A stretch of DNA of 36,314 nucleotides from Alphaproteobacteria bacterium (GTDB lineage Bacteria > Pseudomonadota > Alphaproteobacteria > Bin95), in the NCBI GenBank assembly GCA_022827685.1, contig JAJEIH010000113.1, positions 1 to 36,314 of the forward strand. Direction: 5' to 3'. Numbering within the stretch: the first letter of the stretch is position 1; every line of letters starts with the position of its first letter. The position numbers were made by a program, and so were the translations under genes. Below, piece after piece: positions 35,196 to 36,314 of the stretch. The notes beneath the pieces are model-generated. The model had not been told where the DNA came from. It was given only the letters and a program-made list of their open reading frames with translations, and made no database searches.

Positions 35196-35562
35196 CCGTC
35201 ATGCCCGTCCCCATATCGTCGGACTTGGTCCGGGGCCATTGCTGTCCGGTTTAGATTTTGCGGACAAGGCGCATGGCCTGGATTCAACAGGATTTCAAAG
35301 GGTTCCGTCGGATCGGGACATGGATCGACGCCCGGCTTCCCGACCCACTCCTCGTCATGCCCGGACTTGTTCCGGGCATCCATGCGGCCGTGCAGCGGAA
35401 GCAGTGGAAGTGGATGCCCGGAACAAGTCCGGGCATGACGAGGGGGCGCATTCCGGCACGACGGAAAGCGAGGGGACAGGAGACGTTGCGCGCCCATAAC
35501 CCCCGCTTGGCTTCACCCAATGGCTAAACCGGACAGCAGTGTTCCGGGGCCGGGCATGACGG
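35196..35562. repeat. Outer inverted repeat around the second element
   Basis: CCGTCATGCCCG (35196-35207) and CGGGCATGACGG (35551-35562) are reverse complements outside the element at 35241-35537. TCCGGGGCC also occurs as a direct repeat on each side (35229-35237 and 35543-35551). The layout suggests an element that landed in an older palindrome. Confidence 0.55.
35241..35537. mobile_element. Second repeat element: terminal inverted repeats around a REP pair
   Basis: A 297-base element after the UbiD paralogue. The ends GCTGTCCGGTTTAG (35241-35254) and CTAAACCGGACAGC (35524-35537) are perfect reverse complements. Inside, arms of 33 bases (35350-35382 and 35411-35443) are perfect reverse complements, start CTCGTCATGCCCGG and enclose 28 bases. 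No protein is coded. It has the same plan as the element at 30379-30629 with different sequences. Confidence 0.75.
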
Positions 35563-35670
35563 GAAGAAGACATGAGCCCAAACCGGGGCCGCCGGCATGA
35601 GATTGTCCCGACTGTTCAACAGGTTGTGAGAAAACTGCCCGATATTTCCATCTTTTGTTCCCGAATGGGC

Positions 35671-35697
35671 TTGACTTTCAGCGAAATGGAGTAGAAT
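35671..35697 (+). promoter_or_regulatory. Candidate promoter for the right-edge ORF
   Basis: TTGACT (35671-35676) and TAGAAT (35692-35697) with a 15-base spacer, short by two bases. It sits in an AT-rich patch in an otherwise GC-rich region. Predicted transcription starts near 35704, so a leader of about 235 bases precedes the ORF. Confidence 0.5.
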
Positions 35698-35707
35698 AGG
35701 CATGAGA

Positions 35708-35744
35708 GAAAGGCGGCTCCCGGGGCCGCCTTTCCGCTTTTCTG
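35708..35744 (+). terminator. Hairpin with T-run: terminator or attenuator in the leader
   Basis: GAAAGGCGGC (35708-35717) and GCCGCCTTTC (35725-35734) form a perfect 10-base stem with a 7-base loop, followed by CGCTTTTCTG. It begins within five bases of the predicted transcription start, so it may end nearly all transcripts early. Three more hairpins or palindromes follow: 35739-35750, 35756-35778 (8-base stem) and 35809-35834 (9-base stem). Confidence 0.55.
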
Positions 35745-35937
35745 CAGAAAGCATGGCCGGGGGCCGCAAACCCCCGGCGAGAGCGGACGGGGAAGGTGCG
35801 CCCTGCGTCTCGCGCGCGCAATCAGGCGCGCGAGCCGCGCCGCCGCGATACGCCCGCCCGCCCGCGCACACCCCCGCACGCGATTGCGCGCGAAACAGGG
35901 ACACCCCGTCCCGCCCCTGGCCTGAAAGGAGGCATGG

Positions 35938-36314
35938 ATGACCGTGAACGACCCCCGACCCCGACTGGCAGCGGCGCTGCTGGAGCGCCTCGCCCCGGCC
36001 GCCGAAGCCCTCGCTGCCGCCTGTGCCGGGGACATAAACGCCGGACCGCCGCCGGAGGACGACCGCGCCCGCGCCGACCACCACCGCGCCGCACGCGCCC
36101 AGCTCGCCCATCTGCGCCAGCTCCTCGCCGTGATCGACTGGAGCGCCAGGCACCTGCCCGAACCGGAACCCGGACAGGAGCCCGCTCCAGAGCCGGAGCC
36201 CGTCGAGGACCCGTGGGAGCCGCCGCCCCCGGCGGAGCCCGACTATGACGGCAGCGAGGACGAGTTCCACTATGGCGGCGAGTCCTACGTCGGCAGCCAG
36301 GACACGCCCGAGTT
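35938..36314 (+). CDS. Unidentified acidic Pro-rich protein, N-terminal part (runs off right edge)
   Basis: An ATG at 35938 with AAAGGAGG five bases upstream opens a frame that continues past the end (125 full codons). It begins MTVNDPRPRLAAALLERLAP. Residues 1-80 look helical and Ala-rich, with ARAQLAHLRQLLAVIDW as an amphipathic stretch. Residues about 82-106 are a Pro-Glu run (PEPEPGQEPAPEPEP), and the rest is acidic and rich in Tyr, Gly and Ser. No signal peptide or known domain is visible. I do not recognise it. The strong ribosome site, and the fact that the two other frames show no better coding pattern, support it as real. It could belong to a mobile element or phage remnant, but the window does not show this. 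Confidence 0.6.
   Translation, partial: MTVNDPRPRLAAALLERLAPAAEALAAACAGDINAGPPPEDDRARADHHRAARAQLAHLRQLLAVIDWSARHLPEPEPGQEPAPEPEPVEDPWEPPPPAEPDYDGSEDEFHYGGESYVGSQDTPE

Follow-up and report, generated by a model that had tools for sequence, protein, structure and literature searches.

The right end of the window, by which we mean the whole 36,314-nucleotide stretch of DNA that was analysed, is the front of a dispersed repeat found in about 90 copies in its own genome. From 5' to 3' the copies consist of a TTTGTTC motif, a promoter, a hairpin designated hairpin 1, a part that varies by subfamily, a conserved core, usually an ORF or a remnant of one, although many copies lack an ORF, and CATGACAnnn decamers arranged in an array. 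Hairpin 1 covaries among copies, and one of the two ORF types, which resembles phage small terminases (TerS-like), is under purifying selection. We consider it reasonably likely that the whole is a high-copy, probably mobile element whose RNA is protected by the hairpin and whose TerS-like protein binds the decamer array. As far as the open literature and the family libraries show, the element is undescribed; among titles and abstract openings in the open PMC literature, no terminase-bearing or MITE-like repeat of such kind was found.

The copy at the end of the window

The window is the whole of contig C81 of a 4.3-Mb, 167-contig genome, and it ends inside the repeat (Table 1). Another contig, C4, breaks off at the same base of the repeat as C81, so the break probably comes from the assembler's failure to resolve this repeat. 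The original prediction had missed both the dispersed nature of the sequence and the contig end. It had described an unrecognised acidic protein cut at the window edge, which is confirmed, the contig itself stopping there. The other parts it had listed, namely a promoter-like sequence before a perfect 10-base-stem hairpin, a 12-base palindrome, two further stems, and a strong ribosome-binding site before the ORF, are all present, and the leader of about 235 nt recurs in the own genome and in congeners, as had been expected of its relatives. Its interpretation overall is partly supported.

Table 1. Parts of the element copy in the window.
Feature	Position	Strand	Remark
5' extension of the window's subfamily (ATTGTCCC...GTTGTGAGAAAACTG...)	35602-35653	+	boundary approximate
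TTTGTTC motif	35654-35660	+	imperfect inverted match to 3' CATGACAAAA
Promoter: -35 TTGACT (35671-35676), -10 TAGAAT (35692-35697), spacer 15	35671-35697	+	sequence
Hairpin 1: 10-bp stem GAAAGGCGGC/GCCGCCTTTC, loop of 7, predicted transcript 5' end	35708-35734	+	sequence, covariation
12-base palindrome TTTCTGCAGAAA	35739-35750	.	sequence
Second stem GCCGGGGG...CCCCCGGC	35756-35778	+	sequence varies by subfamily
GC-rich core (GCGCAATCAGGCGCGCGAGCCGCGCC ... CGCGAAACAGGG), conserved	35782-35902	+	most widely shared part of the element
Core stem, 35810-35817/35826-35833	inside 35782-35902	+	
Ribosome-binding site AAAGGAGG	35925-35932	+	sequence
DPRP-type ORF (MTVNDPRPRLAAALLERLAPAAEALA...), ATG 35938 (another ATG at 35934), cut by contig end	35938-36314	+	

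The boundary of the 5' extension was placed by comparing by eye the upstream sequences of the window copy and of L009, L037, L038, L050 and L051; upstream of its approximate start the flanks of several sister copies diverge. Such longer 5' sequence is shared within some subfamilies, the window's included. In several subfamilies similarity between copies starts at TTTGTTC (37 of 64 copies, the motif having been both found there and used as the anchor), and TTGTTC lies inside the 140 bp upstream in 62 of 107 copies. The 12-base palindrome is limited to one group of subfamilies and is missing from many aligned copies, and an AAGGAGG-like site is present in ORF-carrying sister copies as well.

Just upstream of the element, the window carries a 32-bp inverted repeat, CTCGTCATGCCCGGACTTGTTCCGGGCATCCA, at 35351-35382 and 35411-35442. 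Palindromic repeats resembling it occur in L020, L067 and L137, and it looks like a second dispersed repeat.

Copy number and taxonomic range

A DNA search of the own genome with positions 35600-36314 returned 44 matches at E<=1e-3. A pattern of the core motif (26 positions, at most 3 mismatches) found 94 sites there and 70, 83, 71, 111, 27 and 59 sites in the congeners G002 to G007, the reversed control pattern giving none in any of these genomes; G001, of the same genus, has no core motif. Similar copies sit in different flanks. When 40 genomes, the own and relatives, were searched at the DNA level, ten had a match: the own genome, six of the seven congeners, and three distant genomes (G014, G025 and G038), whose GC-rich matches of at most 40 bp were discounted as chance. 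Of 289 genomes of the class, only the own one was hit by a covariance model built from the core, in a search that scored no more than 12 candidates per genome. Viral contigs and phage and plasmid records contained no match to the element. The element with a core of the window's type thus appears, in the genomes compared, to be found in one alphaproteobacterial genus only.

The named relatives from the protein scan are metagenome-assembled genomes, most of them titled Alphaproteobacteria; several have bin names of the jk18x kind, a prefix that bins carry in a study of Ircinia sponges (PMC9531527). The host bacterium is presumably a sponge symbiont.

At four loci (L101, L018, L119 and L120) two or three cores follow one another in tandem; the additional cores have neither promoter nor hairpin 1.

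The decamer array

At least two decamers lie within 2600 bp 3' of 59 of the 61 core-fetched copies that have at least 1500 bp of downstream sequence, as against 3 of 64 in a control of 1500 bp upstream. Among copies with two CATGAC at most 10 bp apart, successive CATGAC are spaced by exactly 10 bp in 177 of the 215 steps shorter than 40 bp, and no step measured 7-9 bp. A pattern of three decamers, allowing at most 3 mismatches, matched the own genome 111 times and its reversed control not at all. Between the start of the leader and the array lie 225 to about 1320 bp, except in one outlier of 2118 bp that contains what look like unrelated genes. Eight of 30 tail loci have no core in view; in the four of these eight for which the sequence before the tail was examined, it contains TerS-like C-termini or remnants, and no transposase was recognised there.

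A shared unit of about 200 bp lies between two decamer clusters at L029-L031, L033, L026, L143 and L158, and may represent another small element lying within the tail.

Two types of encoded protein

A crude motif test divided the 59 array-bearing core-fetched copies into 24 with a DPRP ORF, 5 with a TerS-like ORF and 30 with neither. The DPRP ORF, the type in the window, has 14 matches in the own genome and occurs in seven of the eight genomes of the genus; many of its representatives keep the N-terminus and are cut after it, at points that vary. The window's DPRP ORF has no useful match in Pfam or NCBIfam; the type weakly matches phrog_31793, a family of unknown function (8e-5). Its median dN/dS is 0.49 (328 pairs, in a set that includes chimeric reading frames), and comparison of profiles by hhalign found no relation between the DPRP and TerS-like proteins. 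One DPRP match (G004:C230:72028-72342) lies in an open frame of 24115 codons, a length that probably reflects a stretch of N or an artefact of assembly.

TerS-like ORFs, found in other copies, account for 25 matches in six of the eight genomes of the genus. All six aligned members match the helix-turn-helix of PF03592 (Terminase_2) at about 1e-12 (best 3.8e-12), with profile positions 2-67 of 141 covered in the first member; this match is absent from the window's own ORF. A TerS-like sequence profile searched against the PDB found the SF6 small terminase (2.6e-4), and the top four Foldseek matches of a TerS-like model were SPP1/SF6 small terminases, with weak E-values of which the best was 0.04. 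The model is confident for residues 11-68 only and poor elsewhere (mean pLDDT 52). The TerS-like protein is under purifying selection, the median dN/dS of 34 pairs compared over their first 110 aa being 0.16, and its acidic C-terminal half has no known relative.

Ends of the element and evidence for mobility

Dispersal into different flanks makes it probable that the element is mobile, a property we infer. The termini, compared by eye, form an imperfect inverted match between 5' TTTTGTTCRTG and the 3' sequence given in Table 1; longer terminal inverted repeats (CTTCGCGAAACATGAAA) were seen in one subfamily only and were dropped. No target-site duplication was found in 37 copies whose ends are known only to within a few bp, shared flank words being not above shuffles, and no transposase was recognised by eye in long copies, whose ORFs are of the TerS-like or DPRP type. 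The flanks of three of 16 prepared copies revealed no clean empty site. At two of the sites the same flanks enclose, in other species, a spacer that is similar in size or larger, with G007 carrying a core (L102) at one of them; for the third the flanks are on different contigs in other species, as would fit old insertion and rearrangement.

An unlikely alternative, although the strongest of those considered, is a MITE-like family, in which the transposase of a known insertion sequence acts on the ends while promoter, hairpin and ORFs are passengers. The element shares with bacterial MITEs and other non-autonomous repeats its short dispersed copies, its conserved ends, its many short ORF-less copies beside long, gene-bearing ones, and its restriction to one genus, and the cutting of ORFs at varied points after a kept N-terminus would fit as well. 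It differs in showing no target duplication, only weak and imperfect terminal inverted repeats, and no parent transposase or transposase-bearing long form among the copies seen. Also against a passenger role are the promoter and covarying hairpin kept in gene-less copies and the purifying selection on the TerS-like ORF.

The reading that we favour, of a probably mobile element with its own RNA and DNA-binding protein, would work as follows. Transcription would start about 1-4 nt before hairpin 1, and the RNA so capped would carry the core and the ORF. Long copies would make protein, the TerS-like type having the helix-turn-helix of ring-forming small terminases, and this protein may bind the phased decamers of its own copy and of ORF-less copies. 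ORF-less copies still have their promoter, hairpin, core and array, and so resemble derivatives formed by deletion, which would be served in trans. A bolder form of this proposal, which we regard as speculative, is a new kind of selfish element that combines a captured TerS ring on phased 3' arrays with a short, 5'-capped RNA needed in cis and has multiplied to about 100 copies independently of transposase; no transposase of a known class would be involved, and gene-less derivatives would multiply too.

If the favoured reading holds, small terminases would have found a new use, in which a phage packaging protein is kept under selection outside any recognised phage context and goes together with phased repeats at dozens of sites per genome. 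The element may also explain assembly breaks and rearrangement at repeats in these bacteria, and the covarying 5' hairpin of gene-less copies would make a need for RNA in upkeep or spread of the element directly testable.

Comparison with packaging systems

The resemblance to the small terminase of SPP1/SF6 and its pac site comprises a related helix-turn-helix, direct repeats near the gene and a spacing of one DNA turn. For SPP1-like phages, one account describes direct repeats close to the gene of the small terminase, which probably makes use of them, and helix-turn-helix motifs that lie one turn of DNA apart (PMC4737164). The same account credits the isolated SF6 domain with little sequence specificity for the repeats (PMC4737164), which counts against a simple sequence reading of the decamers. 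The element departs from the SPP1/SF6 arrangement in its approximately 90 copies, in the lack of large terminase or head genes seen beside the TerS-like gene, in an array that lies 3' of the gene, not over its promoter and start, and in the acidic C-terminal half of the protein. Satellites of the SaPI/PICI type carry their own TerS. The element is like them in having a TerS without its own large terminase, and unlike them in its size (about 0.4-1.5 kb), its many copies per genome, and its lack of integrase, replication or capsid genes.

A packaging role for the TerS-like protein is doubtful, because Terminase_6N (PF03237), the sole large-terminase family searched, has no match in the own genome. 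The same search gave matches in one of the eight genomes of the genus and was positive in six of 14 control genomes. It is improbable that the element is a packaging hitchhiker, in which the array would be a pac-like site and the TerS-like protein would direct the motor of a helper phage or gene transfer agent to it for spread between cells; a TerS-like protein with phased direct repeats beside its gene speaks for this, on the pattern of SPP1-like phages (PMC4737164), but packaging alone leaves some 90 different sites unexplained, and the element is missing from the viral contigs and the phage and plasmid records searched.

Hairpin 1 and the leader RNA

Promoter-like hexamers occur in 74 of 102 copies, compared with 39 of 102 mononucleotide shuffles. 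In 47 of the 74 promoter-bearing copies the stem of hairpin 1 starts 8-11 nt after the -10 box, which is about 1-4 nt past the expected start of the predicted transcript. Pairing is kept in 88.5% of its cells over 77 distinct sequences (shuffles 83.2, sd 0.5), and both sides are changed in 66 cells (shuffles 26.5, sd 8.0), a count reached by none of 500 shuffles; sliding the partner by one column reduces pairing to at most 55%, and by two or three columns to at most 62%. The excess over shuffles is confined to cells, percentage paired and score; neither the 4 pairs that show double changes nor the 16 pair types are more than shuffles give. Covariation counted naively between pairs of columns was masked by the subfamilies, and helix-wise counting then singled out hairpin 1; RNAalifold reported almost no covariation (-0.17) for the full leader. 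Against dinucleotide shuffles the fold of the window leader scores better (z -2.26), with 4 in 200 shuffles equalling it.

Covariation of the leader among relatives, which the original prediction had put forward as a check, is therefore seen in hairpin 1 but not in the core hairpin, where none of eight pairs has double changes over 50 sequences and the sequence is nearly invariant. Conservation of the core hairpin could act on the DNA or on the RNA, or could reflect no more than recent copying.

The T-run claimed after hairpin 1 passes a lenient scan narrowly in the window copy and fails a threshold of at least five T among the 8 nt that follow the stem, which four of 102 unique copies reach. 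The conserved feature is therefore a hairpin at the predicted 5' end of the RNA, not a terminator. The lenient scan, of 35500-36314, gave four terminator-like sites against 0.8 in shuffles and, under its 16-18 spacing rule, no promoter-like site. Improbable too, and ruled out as the main reading by the rarity of that T-run, is the proposed attenuator or riboregulator, with hairpin 1 stopping transcription when a signal is lacking or yielding an RNA of about 38 nt: the window copy and its close subfamily do have a perfect stem followed by a few T, and the leader is both long and conserved, but what follows it is one of two unrelated ORF types or no ORF, no covarying alternative structure was found, and at Rfam gathering scores the whole window matches four tRNAs and no regulatory RNA family.

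The 5' stem-loop of ompA mRNA shields the 5' end of that RNA. By analogy, hairpin 1 of the proposed element may shield the 5' end of its RNA instead of ending transcription; both are stem-loops a few nucleotides from a 5' end, which is predicted for hairpin 1. Hairpin 1 differs from stabilising stem-loops of the ompA type in belonging to a dispersed element, and stabilisation of its RNA is a prediction.

Related arrays in a second alphaproteobacterial family

The decamer pattern, at no more than one mismatch, matched seven of 385 genomes of the class: two of the window's genus (100 and 122 matches), three of genus g68 (32, 29 and 52), which belongs to another family than the window's genus, and two with a single match each. 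TerS-like matches number 3, 4, 4 and 5 in G197, G290, G367 and G394. In the last of these, locus L180, from a genus other than the window's, has a TerS-like ORF about 44% identical that ends in three decamers; it follows a short leader without the GC-rich core and lies between ordinary chromosomal genes. Many of the g68 arrays have no TerS ORF close by. From these few genomes, it looks as if the TerS-like gene with its array predates the core and is more widespread, and the leader with hairpin would be a feature of the window's genus.

A GAAC-N7-GAAC or GTTC-N7-GTTC box, which we take to be of the alphaproteobacterial LexA type, lies at most 250 bp upstream of 11 of 43 g68 arrays and of none in shuffles; examples are L223, L233, L236, L237 and L267. 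The start of the L180 TerS-like gene carries GAACATAAAGCGAAC, and at L229, L238 and L246, also in g68, palindromes like AGACAGACCGGTCTGTCC stand shortly before the decamer arrays.
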